A stretch of 25,694 nucleotides of DNA from a virus, in IMG/VR virus record IMGVR_UViG_3300020445_000061, positions 1-25,694 of that record; one strand, given 5' to 3'. The notes below the pieces were generated by a model. That model was given only the letters and a program-made list of their open reading frames with translations. It did not search any database and was not told where the DNA came from. Below, in pieces: positions 4,751 to 22,050 of this stretch (position 1 is its first letter; each line of letters opens with the position of its first letter). Both the position numbers and the translations under genes were made by a program.

Positions 4751-6879
4751 TATTGATCTCCAGGATGACCAACACAATCAATGATGGTCTTGTATGTTGC
4801 ATAGTCAGTAATGTATTTCTCAACATCTTTTCTAGGTACATAATTTATTACTGGTACTATTACAGCAGATCTTAATCCACCTACATCACCTTCACCACAA
4901 AGATATATTTCAGGTTGAGCAGTAAACCCAAATCCTTCCTTAGTAATCTTCAATGCAGTCAATCTACCTTCATGTAGTATAGGTTGATACTCAGGTAATA
5001 TTGGATTACCTCTTTCTCGTTTACCTGCTTTAACACAAACTGTAGTTCCAGCAGTTAAACCATAACCAGCATTGAATATTGCAGGAGGTTGAGCAAATGT
5101 CATAATACCAATCCAATATGGATTTTCTACATCTATTCCGTACATCTTATCATACAATGGATCTCCATTATCGTCAAGTTTTAAGGGGTTATTGGAAACA
5201 GATCCATCAAAATATGGATAACCTCCTCCACCCTTAGTAACAACTACATCTGATACCTTACCATCCTTAATTCTTACATCTGCTGTAGAACCATCACCAT
5301 AACCAGCATAAGACGTTACAGACACCTTAGGTGGTCTTCTTAACCCACTACCACTATCAGTAACATTAATAGCAACTACTTGCCCAAAATGATTAACTGC
5401 AGGTATACCTCTTGGTGGGTTAATACCAGATCCTGGTGTTCCTTGATACCCAGTAAAGAATGTACTAGGGAATGCAGGAATTAAAGTATCATTTGCTTTA
5501 GAACAGTTGATTGTTCTATCAGAAGCTTTAGCACCATTCATAATTCTGGTACTATCCATATCTTTAAAGAAGGCAGCATCACCAAATAATGCTGGTACAA
5601 CATCATCACCAAATGCTTCTACTCTATTAACTAATGATTCAACAATATTATCTGGTCTATCTCCCTCTTTGGTAGTATACTCTCCAGTTCCTGTGTAGCA
5701 TGACATATCTACATTACAGAACTGATTTAATACTTCTCCTAACTTATCAACAAATCCAATATCATAACTTCCTTTAGATTGTATAATTGATGCTGCATTA
5801 TTAATTGCACTCAAGGCAGTTTCAATACCTTCACCAATCATAGAAACTAACAACTCCGTTAAATCTTTAGCGACACAAAATCCAGCATTAAGTAAATTAT
5901 CGAACAGGTCGTTAACCATATCAGTGAGAGATCCCAATAATTGGTTAGCAAGATTATCAAAGAGACATTTCACAATCTCCATGAATGTATCAAATATTTC
6001 CTGTGCATTAAATACTACTTCTGGATTCTTTTCGGGAGAAAGATTTAAAGCAATTGTTAATGGTGTAAGAACCATCTCTTGGAAGAACTTCTTTAATTCA
6101 TATAGTATTACTTGTTTAGTATCACCTAATATACCATTAGCGACACCTTGTAATCTGGAGACATATGATCTTGTAAGTTCTGCTCTGTTTGATATCTTTC
6201 CAGTTACCTTATCAATAAGTAAATCACCAACAATATCATTTCTATTCTTCTTTGCAAATAATTCGCTGAGTATTCTCATAAACTCAGATTCTGGTCTATG
6301 ACCACATTTACCATTTGATACTGAGAATGTAATCTTCTCTATATCTAACTGTTGCTTGTCATTACTACTGTTTCTACCTGTCTGTGTACCTCTTCCAGAT
6401 GGTCCTACTGAACCTTTACCATCTGCAGGTTTATTATTAGCAACAGTATCTGCACGAGTTGGTTCGTAGTTATTACTTAAACCAAGATTACCTGCAACAT
6501 CAGTATATGTTTTACCTTTCTCAACTACACCAAGAGACCCAAAAACCAAAGGTTGTTGGGCACTCTCTCCATCTAAAAAGGTACCAATAACCCATGCACC
6601 AATTCCTAGTCCATGTATAGTACCTTGACTCTTATGCCACTGTGGGGAACTTGGAGGCATCAAAACAGATGCCCAAGGTAAATCCTTAGGTGGCAATGTT
6701 TGTCTATCACGGGCATGATAACCCATGATTCTAACTTTAACTCTATTATTCTCTTGCTTATCAATTAGATCTTCGTGATCTATATCAATAGCACCATCCC
6801 CCTCGACTTGACCAACCCAAAGTCGATTACCTTGGGCACCAAACCAATAATTAGATTCTAGGGTATTTGCAAGTGCCAT
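4750..6879 (-). CDS. 5: Baseplate hub protein, gp5-like with N-terminal OB-fold
   Basis: 709 residues. The N-terminal ~130 residues (YWFGAQGNRLWVGQVEG, NRVKVRIMGYHARDRQ, LPWASVLMPP, IGAWVIGTFLDG) match the OB-fold of T4 gp5 and other spike hubs, which sits on the gp27-like ring. A long helical and Asn/Ser-rich middle follows, then a beta-rich part with repeated 'V.D.GSG...PP.V.V' and 'GGGGY' phrases near residue 500, seen in other cyanophage virion proteins. The T4 gp5 lysozyme core is not visible, and the needle is encoded by the next gene. The start overlaps the stop of CP12 (TAATG). In the virion it should form the trimeric hub at the tail tip. The OB-fold assignment is firm; the role of the remaining 500 residues is not known. 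Confidence 0.8.
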   Translation of the reverse strand: MALANTLESNYWFGAQGNRLWVGQVEGDGAIDIDHEDLIDKQENNRVKVRIMGYHARDRQTLPPKDLPWASVLMPPSSPQWHKSQGTIHGLGIGAWVIGTFLDGESAQQPLVFGSLGVVEKGKTYTDVAGNLGLSNNYEPTRADTVANNKPADGKGSVGPSGRGTQTGRNSSNDKQQLDIEKITFSVSNGKCGHRPESEFMRILSELFAKKNRNDIVGDLLIDKVTGKISNRAELTRSYVSRLQGVANGILGDTKQVILYELKKFFQEMVLTPLTIALNLSPEKNPEVVFNAQEIFDTFMEIVKCLFDNLANQLLGSLTDMVNDLFDNLLNAGFCVAKDLTELLVSMIGEGIETALSAINNAASIIQSKGSYDIGFVDKLGEVLNQFCNVDMSCYTGTGEYTTKEGDRPDNIVESLVNRVEAFGDDVVPALFGDAAFFKDMDSTRIMNGAKASDRTINCSKANDTLIPAFPSTFFTGYQGTPGSGINPPRGIPAVNHFGQVVAINVTDSGSGLRRPPKVSVTSYAGYGDGSTADVRIKDGKVSDVVVTKGGGGYPYFDGSVSNNPLKLDDNGDPLYDKMYGIDVENPYWIGIMTFAQPPAIFNAGYGLTAGTTVCVKAGKRERGNPILPEYQPILHEGRLTALKITKEGFGFTAQPEIYLCGEGDVGGLRSAVIVPVINYVPRKDVEKYITDYATYKTIIDCVGHPGDQ

Positions 6880-7106
6880 TAATCATCGTAGATCAAACAC
6901 TCAGGTTCGTCTGGGTGCATCTCGCAAAATAATTCTATTGCATTTGGATCATGATGATCACCTGCTTCTATCTCATCGTGATGATGCTCTTCATAAACTT
7001 CTAGTTCATGTAGCTCTTCCTTATAATGCCTACGTGCAGCAGGACTTATAGTAGGATCATCAAGTATCTCTTGATCATGCTTAATGTGATCTTCTATAGT
7101 TTTCAT
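6879..7106 (-). CDS. cp12: CP12-like Calvin-cycle regulator
   Basis: 75 residues. The C-terminus AIELFCEMHPDEPECLIYDD carries the CP12 signature: two cysteines (61 and 70) eight residues apart around an acidic, Pro-containing loop, ending in YDD. In cyanobacteria this end enters the active site of GAPDH and, with phosphoribulokinase, forms the inactive dark complex. The N-terminal cysteine pair of plant-type CP12 is absent, and only a helix-rich segment (RRHYKEELHELEVYEE) and a His/Asp-rich linker precede the motif. Phage CP12 is thought to shift host carbon flow from the Calvin cycle to the pentose phosphate pathway. Oddly it sits between two baseplate hub genes, five bases after one and overlapping the other. 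Confidence 0.85.
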   Translation of the reverse strand: MKTIEDHIKHDQEILDDPTISPAARRHYKEELHELEVYEEHHHDEIEAGDHHDPNAIELFCEMHPDEPECLIYDD

Positions 7107-11366: not shown

Positions 11367-13082
11367 TTAATTACCTTCTGTCTTACGACCCCATACGGCA
11401 AAAGAACTTGATTTAGTTGCAGCAGAACTTCCACCAACTGGAAATGGTACTACTTGTGGTTCTGATACTTGAGCAATCATAACTGTATTAGCCAATGATG
11501 GAAGTATATCTTCGTAATTTGGTTCAGGTTCTGGATCTACCATATTTAGTTCTTTCTTAGCAGCTGCAATTCTATCTTCAATTGGATTTTCATAATCATA
11601 ATTCATACGATGAATACTACTATCTAATCCCCTCATAGTACTTGCAACAGTACCTTGTTTAGTCCAAGTTTCCCTGTTATGACTAGCAACTTCAACACCC
11701 TTTACATGTGCACTTGCACTAAAACTTCGTCCAGGTTTCCAAGTGAATTGTGCTCCAACAGCATCTCTATCTGTAACTTCAGGTTGAACTATTGCCTCAC
11801 TAGTATCATCACCACTCTCCATATCTTTCTTATTTTCCTTTGCTACATCTTCAACTGCTGATTCAACAACATCTGCTATTAATGGTGCTACAAACCAACC
11901 CAACCTACTCTTAGGAACAATATACTCGTCCTCTTTACCTTCACCCACCATAATCAATTGAGGTTTCTTAATCTGAGCTCCTTCTGCTGCACCTTCTGCT
12001 TTTCCTTTACCTATAGTAACATCATATAATAATCCACCTAAAGCATCACCAATCATACCACCAGCAATAGCACCTAAAGTACCTCCTACTGCTGTTCCTA
12101 AGAATGGAATAACAGATCCAGCAGCAGCTGCTGCAACTCCACCTGCCCAAGCACCAATACCTGCACCCGTTGCCATGAATACTGCTTTGGCTACAGGTTC
12201 TTTAAAAACAAAGATATTAATAAGTGCATCAGCAATAGCACCAATAAATGGTATTCTCTTTAATAACTTTCCTGGACCTGCTTTATAAAATAATTTAAAC
12301 TGCTTAAGAAGTTGTTTTGTACCAGTTTTAGCTATCTTCTTACTACCTACTTCTGCTATTTCTTTAGTTCCACTCTGTATTAATTTCTTTGCACCACTTT
12401 CAGTTCCACTCTTTAATAACTTAGTACTTGCTGTTTCAGCACCCGACTGAAGTAACTTTTGAGCAGGTTTTTTAGTGAAAGCCGATTTTGCTTTTTTCGC
12501 TATAGCATTAAATGCCTTTCCAGGTAAACTCTTAATAAATCTACTAGCTTGTCTGAAAGGTCTAAATATAGTTCTCCTAAACCGTTTACCAATTGTTCTC
12601 CATTTTCTAAGTAAACGTCTAAGTCGTCTAATTGCTTTTATACCACGTTTACCAATTAATCTCTTTAAACCACGTTTTATCTTAAGCCACGCCTTTCCAA
12701 GTAGTTTCCTAAATAACCGATTTAACCAAGTACCACCTTTTGGATCTTCTAATTCCTTCTTCTTAGCCCATCTCCTTCTCATCTCAGGTGTTCCAGGAAC
12801 AACCTTTTTAGATTTCATAATACCGAGATTACCAAATCTAGAACGCTCATACGTAAGTTCTAATTTAGTTTGTTTCCAAAGTAATATTGCAGTATCTCTT
12901 AACTTCTTTGACTCTTTCTGAACAGAATTTATATCTCCACCAGATCCTTCACCATCACCATCATCACTATCTCCCTTTGGCTTATCTGGATGTGCACCAA
13001 AAACAGCCGTCTTTGCATTATACAGTGATAACACAAGATCGTTATAATTCCTTGTTCCTAATTTTTTAGTTTTTACAGGCAT
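11367..13082 (-). CDS. Tape-measure-like tail protein
   Basis: 571 residues. The N-terminal third is basic (many RRLRRLLRKW-like runs around 130-190). It is followed by an amphipathic repeat region (LLQSGAETASTKLLKSGTES, with the phrase 'K.L..SGT' repeated about four times between 205 and 260) and a long Gly/Ala hydrophobic segment (about 295-355, GAGIGAWAGGVAAAAAGSV). Around residue 380 the phrase IMVGEGKEDEYIVPKSR resembles the 'VGE.GPE.vvP' box common near the end of tape-measure proteins. The size is close to T4 gp29 (590 aa), and it directly follows gp26 and its -1 extension, the classical chaperone/tape-measure order. TAAATG joins it to that extension. It may be the gp29 counterpart; which of the two large proteins measures the tail is open. 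Confidence 0.65.
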   Translation of the reverse strand: MPVKTKKLGTRNYNDLVLSLYNAKTAVFGAHPDKPKGDSDDGDGEGSGGDINSVQKESKKLRDTAILLWKQTKLELTYERSRFGNLGIMKSKKVVPGTPEMRRRWAKKKELEDPKGGTWLNRLFRKLLGKAWLKIKRGLKRLIGKRGIKAIRRLRRLLRKWRTIGKRFRRTIFRPFRQASRFIKSLPGKAFNAIAKKAKSAFTKKPAQKLLQSGAETASTKLLKSGTESGAKKLIQSGTKEIAEVGSKKIAKTGTKQLLKQFKLFYKAGPGKLLKRIPFIGAIADALINIFVFKEPVAKAVFMATGAGIGAWAGGVAAAAAGSVIPFLGTAVGGTLGAIAGGMIGDALGGLLYDVTIGKGKAEGAAEGAQIKKPQLIMVGEGKEDEYIVPKSRLGWFVAPLIADVVESAVEDVAKENKKDMESGDDTSEAIVQPEVTDRDAVGAQFTWKPGRSFSASAHVKGVEVASHNRETWTKQGTVASTMRGLDSSIHRMNYDYENPIEDRIAAAKKELNMVDPEPEPNYEDILPSLANTVMIAQVSEPQVVPFPVGGSSAATKSSSFAVWGRKTEGN

Positions 13083-13274
13083 TTAAGATCTTCTCTTCTG
13101 TTCTTCAATTTTCTTCTTCTCCTCTTCCAAGTGTTGTTTTAACAATTCAACGTATACATCCCTTTCCCATGGGATCATATTATTAAGATCGTCAAAACCA
13201 TACTTATGATGTTGCATCATACCAAAGTTGATCCTTATATGAGATTCAAGTGAGGTATGGAAGAGGGCTATATG
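13083..13274 (-). CDS. -1 frame extension of gp26 (tail assembly chaperone T-like domain)
   Basis: This open stretch in the -1 frame relative to gp26 starts at the slippery heptamer and ends at TAA 13085-13083, immediately before the ATG of the tape-measure-like gene. After a -1 slip it adds 63 residues (HIALFHTSLESH at its start, KYGFDDLNNMIPWERDVYVE in the middle, then a Lys/Glu helix ending KRRS), giving a 295-residue gp26 fusion. The phrase 'YGf..l..m.PWER..Y...L' resembles the frameshifted half of lambda-type tail assembly chaperones. A stand-alone protein of 45 residues could instead start at ATG 13220, but its ribosome binding site (GGAT, 10 bases away) is weak. Confidence 0.65.
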   Translation of the reverse strand, partial: HIALFHTSLESHIRINFGMMQHHKYGFDDLNNMIPWERDVYVELLKQHLEEEKKKIEEQKRRS

Positions 13275-13969
13275 AAAAAATTGGCTAATCCCTCAATTGT
13301 GTGCGAACTTTCGACTTTAGTATTGGGATTTCTTATTTTGATAGTATGCTTTAATGATGGCATGGTTTCAAAGAATTCCTGAATTTTAGCAAATTGCTTA
13401 CTACTCATTCCTTCAACAAATTCCATAAATTCATCTTCTGTTGTAGTAGATGAATCCCACACATCTTCTTCATTGTAAATCTTTTTAATAGATTTAGAAA
13501 CTAATTTAAAGGTATCCTCAACAGTTTCTTCTTGTTGAGCAAGAGAATCTATATTTGGATATTTCATTTCAACCCAAAGATCATCACTAACTTGTATTTT
13601 ATTAGTATGACCCTTAGTAAATGAAACTTTAATCTTATCTATTGGTATTTGTGTAGTTACTTCAGTTTTATCATCGTCAGGACATAACACCCTAACATCA
13701 ATACTTTCACCAATAGATTTACCTCTAATATTTAAAAATAAATACTCAACATCAAAAGTAGCAAGATTATCAGGATCAATTCCCTTAGTGAGAACACATG
13801 CTCTTATCAAATCCTTCATTGCCTGAGCAATTTGGACATCATCCTCAGATTCTAATGCTAATAGAAGAACTTTCTCTTCCTTAACCAAGAATGGTCTATA
13901 TTTAACTTTCTTTTTAGTTGATGGTATAGTCAACTCATAAGTCGGGGTACTTAACGAAGGTAATGCCAT
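13268..13969 (-). CDS. 26: gp26-like baseplate hub / tail assembly chaperone protein
   Basis: 233 residues, matching the T4 gp26 baseplate hub family (T4: 208 aa). The text is MALPSLSTPTYELTIPSTKK, then YRPFLVKEEKVLLLALES, DLIRACV, the conserved VEYLFLNIRGKSIGE near residue 75-90, and a C-terminal half with FVEGMSSKQFAKIQEFFETMP and PSLKHTIKI. In many tailed phages the protein in this position is the tail assembly chaperone that keeps the tape measure soluble, and several features here fit that role: it lies directly upstream of a tape-measure-like gene and ends in a -1 slippery sequence. The stop TAG is at 13270-13268. No strong promoter is visible in the 33 bases to the upstream gene. Confidence 0.85.
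   Translation of the reverse strand: MALPSLSTPTYELTIPSTKKKVKYRPFLVKEEKVLLLALESEDDVQIAQAMKDLIRACVLTKGIDPDNLATFDVEYLFLNIRGKSIGESIDVRVLCPDDDKTEVTTQIPIDKIKVSFTKGHTNKIQVSDDLWVEMKYPNIDSLAQQEETVEDTFKLVSKSIKKIYNEEDVWDSSTTTEDEFMEFVEGMSSKQFAKIQEFFETMPSLKHTIKIRNPNTKVESSHTIEGLANFFI
13274..13280 (-). promoter_or_regulatory. Programmed -1 ribosomal frameshift site T_TTT_TTC
   Basis: In gp26 codons 230-232 (AAT TTT TTC) the heptamer T TTT TTC fits the X_XXY_YYZ rule exactly. Both tRNAs re-pair with TTT TTT after a -1 slip, two codons before the in-frame TAG. The new frame is open for 63 codons up to the next gene. Confidence 0.7.
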
Positions 13970-14002: not shown

Positions 14003-14746
14003 CTAAGCGAAACCTGCTCCAATGGATGAAGGAATATCGTTCATACCTAAATTTCCATAAATCTTTTTCTGAGTTCCTTCATTCTGTTTAGAAGCTGCCA
14101 CAAACTGTGCAACACTTTCCTCTCTTAGATACTCATAATAAAATGCTGCTTGAAATCTAACTGGTTGATTAGGACCATTACTAAATGTCATAGCAGATAA
14201 TGTATAAGGAAATGCATTCTTCAATACATAACTTGAAACTACATTAACTGGTTCTACTGTATTATCATTTGTCTCTATCTTTTGAATAATTAAATCTGCA
14301 GTATAATTATCGTAATAATTAGTCCTTATATAATCATTAGGTTTCTTTACCTCCTCTGTATGTCCAAAAACATACTCACCCCATCTTTGCATTACTTTAT
14401 ATGGAGTGTGCTTATGGTCAAGAATAAAACTTATATTTGCTTCACTAAATGTCTTAGTGTGTGCATACTTTAAATTAATTCCAGGTAGAAATCCTTTCAA
14501 CTCATCAGTAGCAACTGTGAACCCAGGAACATTTACTTCATCTGCTAACCAACTAGTTAATGATGCATTTGCTACATTACCTATACCAATTTCTTGATCA
14601 AAAACTGGTCCTGGATTATCTACTCCTTTATAGAGTACATTATCTCTAAATTTATCATTAGGTGGCAAAAATGATATTTGATACCTATTTGAGTTAGCAA
14701 TCCCATAGTCACCTACTATATTCTTTCTAATATCGTCGATTTTCAT
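14003..14746 (-). CDS. 54: Tail-tube-fold protein, probable gp54-like tube initiator
   Basis: 247 residues. The layout matches tube-initiator proteins of the T4 gp54 type: an N-terminal NSNRYQISFLPP strand, VNVPGFTVATDELKGF, LPGINLKYAHTKTF, then ISFILDHKHTPYKVMQRWGEYVFG, which recalls 'ISFRMD.....AMQDWV' in T4 gp54, and a final strand VRFQAAFYYEYLREES. It is shorter than T4 gp54 (320 aa) and longer than the tube protein gp19 (163 aa). It heads the minus-strand late operon, 23 bases downstream of a TATAAATA late promoter. A different tail-tube paralogue is the alternative. In the virion it would seat the first tube ring on the baseplate next to gp48. Confidence 0.6.
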   Translation of the reverse strand: MKIDDIRKNIVGDYGIANSNRYQISFLPPNDKFRDNVLYKGVDNPGPVFDQEIGIGNVANASLTSWLADEVNVPGFTVATDELKGFLPGINLKYAHTKTFSEANISFILDHKHTPYKVMQRWGEYVFGHTEEVKKPNDYIRTNYYDNYTADLIIQKIETNDNTVEPVNVVSSYVLKNAFPYTLSAMTFSNGPNQPVRFQAAFYYEYLREESVAQFVAASKQNEGTQKKIYGNLGMNDIPSSIGAGFA

Positions 14747-21088: not shown

Positions 21089-21337
21089 TTAGATATTACT
21101 TGTAAAGTTAGTGTCTATAGTTGAACCAGGGTTTGCTTTTTTAATACTCTTCAAGACATCTTTGAAACCATCAGGTCTCTTGTCTTTAATAGCAGCATCA
21201 GCAACCAAACCAGGATAAGTGGAATGGTACTGTTCTAAGTGAGGGTTATCCTCCTTATATTTATCGAGAACAGTAAAGGACATCCGTTCTTCGGTGACCT
21301 CCCCTGTCTCTTTATTTCTGAATTCATAGAGTGGCAT
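21089..21337 (-). CDS. Small FmdB-like protein lacking cysteines
   Basis: 82 residues. The start MPLYEFRNKETGEVTEERMS resembles the FmdB-type zinc-ribbon opening (MPlYeyrC..CG) but carries no cysteine at all, so it cannot bind zinc in the usual way. The remainder, with NPHLEQYHSTYPGLVADA and PDGFKDVLKSIKKANPG, matches a small protein often seen near phoH or neck genes in T4-like phages. Its start overlaps the ho1 stop (TAATG). Function unknown; the zinc-ribbon origin is inference from the N-terminal phrase. Confidence 0.75.
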   Translation of the reverse strand: MPLYEFRNKETGEVTEERMSFTVLDKYKEDNPHLEQYHSTYPGLVADAAIKDKRPDGFKDVLKSIKKANPGSTIDTNFTSNI

Positions 21338-22050
21338 TACCTAAACCTCTTAGATACAATCATCTCGGAAAAGAAATCTCCTAGTAGTCCTAGAACAATT
21401 TGTAGGGTTGACTTAGCAGCATCACCTGCTAACTCATCAAACATATACATGTTTAATCTGAAAGCATGATTTGCTTCAACTATTATAGCATCAAATTGCT
21501 TTTGTGTCACTGGTAGAGTATCTATATTCCTACGATAGAAATCTTTGAAGGTTGTTGCACTCTCTATATCTTTAAAGTCATAGAAATTAAATGCATCATC
21601 ACCTAACTTCAATGACTTCTGTGCTATACCTTTAAGTATTTGACCACCCGATAGGTCACCCATGTACCTAGTGTAGTGATGTCCTACAAATAAGTATTGG
21701 TGGTCACCACGACCAACTTCTCTTATCCTATCAATATATTTCTTAGTAGCAGGACTAGGATAAATTGTCTCATGCCACCCTTCACCATAAAAGTAATTTA
21801 GATCCTTCACCAAAGCATCGTGACGATTAAGAGCATCACTAAGTATAGGACTGACCTCAGGGTTATCCTTTAAGTGACCTGCAACATCCTCTAAGGCAGA
21901 GTAAACAAAGTAAAGGTTAGCAACTAAGGTTCTATAACTTTCCTTGTCTACAACACCTCTAAGAAATGATGCAACGAACTTAGTATTCTCTGCTGCTGAA
22001 TGGGACTTCTTTGTCCCTACCTTTATTTGTTTTGAATAGTTTTCTACCAT
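21337..22050 (-). CDS. ho1: Heme oxygenase (ho1)
   Basis: 237 residues. Opens heme to biliverdin IX-alpha, the first step in phycobilin synthesis, using reduced ferredoxin. The proximal heme ligand is in KKSHSAAENTKFV (His17), and the distal helix phrase HHYTRYMGDLSGGQILKGIA carries the conserved GDLSGGQ glycines. The length equals cyanobacterial Ho1. It is a photosynthesis-related auxiliary gene known in several cyanomyoviruses, usually alongside pcyA or pebS; none of these is in this window. A ribosome binding site AGAGG lies 8-9 bases upstream, and its ATG overlaps the thyX stop by seven bases. Confidence 0.97.
   Translation of the reverse strand: MVENYSKQIKVGTKKSHSAAENTKFVASFLRGVVDKESYRTLVANLYFVYSALEDVAGHLKDNPEVSPILSDALNRHDALVKDLNYFYGEGWHETIYPSPATKKYIDRIREVGRGDHQYLFVGHHYTRYMGDLSGGQILKGIAQKSLKLGDDAFNFYDFKDIESATTFKDFYRRNIDTLPVTQKQFDAIIVEANHAFRLNMYMFDELAGDAAKSTLQIVLGLLGDFFSEMIVSKRFR

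Follow-up and report, generated by a model that had tools for sequence, protein, structure and literature searches.

Tail assembly chaperones of T4-like phages

The frameshift that joins the tail chaperone genes G and T was regarded in a 2016 review as widely conserved "except T4" (PMC5009743), and gp26 and gp51 have been listed as hub assembly chaperones, gp51 being essential and of unknown function (PMC3004832). Since then, Vladimirov, Gautam & Davidson (2022, Virology 566:9-15) have reportedly identified the tail assembly chaperone (TAC) genes of T4-like phages, TAC-N and TAC-NC. PMC10885494, citing that work, states that in some T4-like phages the frameshift is replaced by two genes, a short one and a long fused one, and PMC12846349 mentions poly-T slippery signals as known in T4-like TAC-N genes. 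The latter source also describes in Vandenendeviridae/Andersonviridae a locus similar to the one studied here, with a myovirus chaperone gene and a -1 extension upstream of the tape measure gene; however, those phages belong to another family and use a GTTTTT motif, whereas the present site is T_TTT_TTC (PMC12846349).

The locus studied here lies in a window of 25,694 nucleotides, the whole stretch of viral DNA that was analysed (IMG/VR record IMGVR_UViG_3300020445_000061). Judged from sequence comparisons, it very probably encodes the TAC pair of a T4-like marine cyanophage, in which a short gp26 and a long fusion would be obtained through a programmed -1 slip on T_TTT_TTC. The T4-like TACs of Vladimirov et al. 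(2022) belong to the same gp26/gp51 family, of which the window holds another cyanophage member. The earlier note had read gp26 as a G/GT-type protein linking the T4 hub to the general chaperone family. This link is supported, yet it is not new, having largely been reported by Vladimirov et al. (2022); the core point, a frameshifted T4-like chaperone, was published there, and the window adds a further cyanophage case. Beyond family membership, the present analysis worked out the downstream hairpin, the SD-like element and the Ackermannviridae variant of the site.

The gp26-like gene and its -1 extension

The features around the site are the following.

13268..13969, (-): gp26-like gene, putative short tail assembly chaperone (G / TAC-N), 233 aa, recognised by the phrog_150 and PF12322 profiles
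13274..13280, (-): slippery heptamer T_TTT_TTC, read directly from the sequence
13083..13274, (-): -1 frame extension (putative T / TAC-C), 63 codons plus TAA, with a phrog_634 match
14003..14746, (-): gene for a tail tube-like protein (phrog_45 tail tube, E 1.2e-33; Phage_TTP_2, E 6.3e-21)
11367..13082, (-): 571-aa ORF, candidate tape measure protein, weak PHROG matches

The gp26-like gene is matched by PF12322 T4_baseplate (E 4.6e-69) and phrog_150 'baseplate hub' (E 2.6e-73), and on the minus strand of the window its 3' end reads GCC AAT TTT TTC ATA TAG. The heptamer that had been claimed near this end was borne out to the base (13280..13274), a single sense codon, ATA, separating it from the TAG. 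In the seven tail genes of the window, an X_XXY_YYZ pattern occurs at 21 of 3479 in-frame positions, and a heptamer starting with six T's at one of them, namely the gp26 site. The same note had described a -1 frame open for 63 codons, closed by a TAA followed by an ATG, and a 295-residue fusion, and all of this was confirmed from the sequence: the first codon of the extension is CAT (13274..13272), its TAA (13085..13083) abuts the ATG of the next ORF, which starts at 13082, and gp26 plus the extension, joined by a -1 slip, gives 295 residues. For the extension, matches were obtained to phrog_634 'baseplate hub assembly catalyst' (E 2.5e-25) and to the C-terminal columns of phrog_150.

The tail tube-like gene is located directly upstream of the gp26-like gene, and the 571-aa ORF directly downstream of the extension. 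The latter weakly matches tail lysin and tape measure PHROGs (E 4.5e-12 to 2e-4), matches that stem partly from a glycine/alanine-rich stretch. Like lambda gpG/gpGT, the locus has a -1 slippery site near the end of the short ORF and an extension before a candidate tape measure gene; the slippery sequence and the product ratio may differ from those of lambda.

Other genes were also observed in the window. A CP12-domain ORF of the Calvin-cycle regulator type (6879-7106, (-); PF02672, E 1.4e-10; phrog_627, unknown function) sits between hub-type genes inside the tail/baseplate cluster. A heme oxygenase gene, a typical cyanophage auxiliary metabolic gene, is found at 21337-22050, (-) (PF01126, E 5.9e-69), and an N6/N4 DNA methylase gene (981-1931, (-); PF01555) lies in the structural region near tail fibre genes.

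Conservation of the slippery site and of the -1 frame

Homologous loci from IMG/VR and GenBank phages (182) were thinned to 128 representatives with less than 90% protein identity. Outside Ackermannviridae, all 123 representatives present T_TTT_TT[C/T], as T_TTT_TTC in 115 and T_TTT_TTT in 8. The codon before TTT TTY varies (AGT, AAT, TCT, GAT, GCT, GGT, ACT) with its final T constant, and the heptamer tracks the shifts in its distance from the stop (-7, -13, -16). The FFxxxP motif of these genes, which also holds a conserved Phe-Phe pair, served as an internal control: the pair is slippery in 0/105 cases. The phages that bear the heptamer are cyanophages, HTVC008M, phiM12, pf16, DLP6, BUCT608, Vibrio nt-1/KVP40-like and K571, Aeromonas phiAS5, Desulfovibrio 7757 and Atu_ph04; homologue searches from the Vibrio nt-1 and DLP6 gp26 seeds returned two loci each. 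Frameshifting is reportedly conserved in several T4-like groups, a finding attributed to the 2022 study.

The comparison of 123/123 with 0/105 rules out a chance heptamer. More broadly, chance, a decayed gene or a sequencing error is scarcely credible as the origin of the arrangement: assembly indels can mimic a frameshift, but there was no sign of such an indel in the analysis results, and the recurrence of the same gp26/extension arrangement in more than 170 contigs and isolate genomes refutes an error.

In every intact homologue the -1 frame stays open, and its conservation begins at the slip site. The extension has nevertheless been annotated in GenBank as a gene of its own ('gp51' or 'hypothetical') in S-PM2, S-SM2, nt-1 and DLP6. 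In many relatives a -1-frame ATG lies 2 to 5 nt past the first letter of the stop codon (e.g., TAATG, TAAGCATG), and because this ATG sits beside the gp26 stop, a separate extension product is possible in them. These observations would suit a separate small gene, read either by reinitiation or from a ribosome site of its own located past the end of gp26. However, in 32 of the 119 full-extension representatives, the window among them, the first 44 nt beyond the stop hold no -1-frame ATG, GTG or TTG, and by then the conserved block is already well advanced, and in the window the earliest one appears at +50 nt past the gp26 stop. An own start is thus ruled out as a general explanation, and these phages do not combine an unconserved heptamer with an extension that invariably carries a start codon of its own. 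Moreover, reinitiation leaves unexplained the invariant T_TTT_TTY and the compensatory hairpin changes described below, and in T4 the extension domain is fused in frame. The separate gene is therefore considered improbable, and the programmed slip is preferred.

RNA signals around the site

In 114 representatives the 42 nt starting 2 nt past the heptamer fold better than their synonymous recodings, the mean z being -2.7 and 65% of the values lying below -2. Stretches starting at least 8 codons further downstream gave z values of -0.25 to -0.66 in the same test, and after thinning to 36 sequences with less than 80% nucleotide identity the mean z of the downstream structure was -2.16. Compensatory pairs were observed in two hairpin sets, where U-A in 13 sequences changes to G-C in 6, and C-G in 15 changes to G-C in 2; out of 500 shuffles, 0 for the first set and 4 for the second reached the covariation score. 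Both sets were picked because they share a hairpin register, hence for structure, which leaves the recoding test as the one free of this bias.

A strong hairpin is present downstream of the heptamer in most lineages other than the clade of the window. In this clade a clear downstream hairpin was not found (z -0.15 for 42 nt, -0.69 for 60 nt), and a hairpin in the window itself is unsupported (z -0.15). Two other elements were noted.

13218..13259, (-): CAUACC/GGUAUG, a possible but weak long-range stem of 6 bp after the heptamer, non-significant in the clade
13289..13294, (-): SD-like GAGGGA, possible stimulator, upstream of the heptamer, with GAG codon bias

The CAUACC/GGUAUG stem is broken in the loci L010 and L011. 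Concerning the SD-like element, at the codon whose start lies 14 nt before the heptamer Glu is encoded by GAG in 70/99 homologues, versus 32% of the Glu codons elsewhere in the genes, a bias that points to GAGG as a possible frameshift stimulator. In the clade of the window (13260-13294, (-)), the GAGGG preceding the slippery site is complementary to a CCCTC that follows it; their pairing could put the heptamer in a loop, or it may be a coincidence.

The run of six T's could also be read at another level, with mixed mRNAs arising because the polymerase, and not the ribosome, slips on the T6 run, and the fusion would be identical by either route. Six T's are, however, a short run for polymerase slippage. 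Furthermore, the run keeps the X_XXY_YYZ codon register and is mostly C-ended, and the downstream structure of most lineages suits ribosomal frameshifting. Slippage of the polymerase is thus very unlikely, even more so than a separate gene, and ribosomal slippage on T_TTT_TTC is retained.

Relation to T4 gp26 and gp51

T4 gp26 matches phrog_150 in columns 14-235 only, and T4 gp51 matches columns 13-280 plus phrog_634. Since gp26 stops at column 235 while gp51 reaches 280 and also matches phrog_634, gp51 corresponds to the gp26 domain with an in-frame extension. A profile of extensions of the frameshift type only, compared with the C-terminus of T4-type gp51, gave an hhalign probability of 97.5 (E 9e-12), and by this profile comparison the window extension is homologous to the T4 gp51 C-terminus. 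In T4, gp26 corresponds to the short form and gp51 to the short-form domain plus the extension, as in the gp26 and fusion of the window, but T4 makes both from separate, divergently transcribed genes with no frameshift, whereas the window recodes one gene. T4, which according to the earlier note is usually cited as lacking the -1 slip to GT, does not lack the chaperone pair: it has it as genes 26 (short) and 51 (long).

A search of whole records with phrog_150 and phrog_634 revealed two full genes, short (26) and long (51), in T4, RB49-like FL15, RB43, Aeromonas 31 and P4-3. The remaining whole records present one full copy, and the extensions detected are always in -1 directly after it; S-SM2, S-PM2 and HTVC008M have a single full gp26-type copy each. 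In the window, which is a partial contig, a separate in-frame long gene (gp51) was not found, with one PF12322 gene among the proteins scanned. Regarding gene order, the 26/51 pair is divergent in T4, RB49-like, Aeromonas 31 and P4-3 phages, unlike RB43, where 51 is followed by 26 in the same direction (L111, 2501-3794). In an ML tree of gp26/gp51, with a midpoint root and several long branches, the T-even gp26 and gp51 copies fall together on one side of a 100/98 branch, gp51 being a 100/99 group. At the level of sequence, this tree is consistent with a 26/51 duplication in the T-even lineage.

The -1 heptamer was absent from the gp26 ends of Ackermannviridae (23 loci examined). The Menlow/Vi01-like members present G/A_ATT_TTC at its place, ATT_TTC being invariant, and four further phages of the family have another NNT_TTC at the gp26 end. 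In the loci L228-L245, gp26 ends in an invariant ATT TTC AT[TC] TAA. The conserved -1 extension of the family usually lacks a start codon until +32 nt, and in most members of the Menlow/Vi01-like group it begins before any start codon. With no canonical heptamer, a shift of the tetramer type (T_TTC) or another mechanism would therefore be needed, and we infer a weaker T_TTC shift. The evidence is about evenly balanced on whether the family shares a three-part cassette (an SD-like purine stretch, an invariant T_TTT_TTY and a lineage-specific compensated hairpin), the T-evens having swapped in the 26/51 duplication and the Ackermannviridae having reduced the site to ATT_TTC (T_TTC).

Fold and proposed function

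The AF2 model of the window gp26 has a pLDDT of 86.6. Its best PDB chains are 3FGX (Z 8.1), 2OB9 (HK97 gp13, Z 7.9) and 3KLU (Z 7.3), the next match being at 5.0, and PMC9603447 describes each of the three as a tail assembly chaperone. These matches of the N-terminal domain, HK97 gp13, YqbN and Rbstp2171, cover residues 1-96, with an rmsd of about 4 over about 85 residues and moderate Z. TAC chains were absent from the fold-search matches of a T4-type gp51 model, so the result of the gp26 model was not repeated there. The predicted gp26 N-terminal domain thus moderately resembles a TAC-type fold. In sequence, neither lambda G nor T was matched, the Pfam and PHROG scans being significant for T4_baseplate, phrog_150 and phrog_634 only. 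In comparison with lambda gpG/gpGT, gp26 would share an N-terminal domain similar to the HK97 gp13 chaperone fold in the model, but it is longer than G, with domains beyond the TAC-like residues 1-96, and sequence similarity was not detected in these scans.

Taken together, the conservation of the site, the missing starts of the extension in many lineages, the homology to the T4 gp51 C-terminus and the N-terminal fold support gp26 as a G/GT-type chaperone. Most ribosomes would stop at the TAG and produce the short chaperone gp26 (G/TAC-N). A minority would slip -1 at T_TTT_TTC, two Phe tRNAs re-pairing on TTT TTT, and produce the 295-residue fusion (GT/TAC-NC) with its C-terminal domain of 63 residues. 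If lambda is a guide, gp26 alone could coat the tape measure protein while the fusion recruits tail tube subunits, and neither would stay in the virion. The slippage, its rate and this division of labour are points that we infer.

Implications for T4-like phages

For annotation, gp26 and the 'gp51' or hypothetical gene that follows it should be recorded as linked through a -1 frameshift, a correction that concerns hundreds of cyanophage and other T4-like genomes. The anatomy of the RNA signals is the part that may add to the 2022 work. The family also offers a clear evolutionary case, as one lineage recodes and its sister lineage has two isoform genes, which allows a comparison of recoding with duplication as answers to the need for two chaperone forms.
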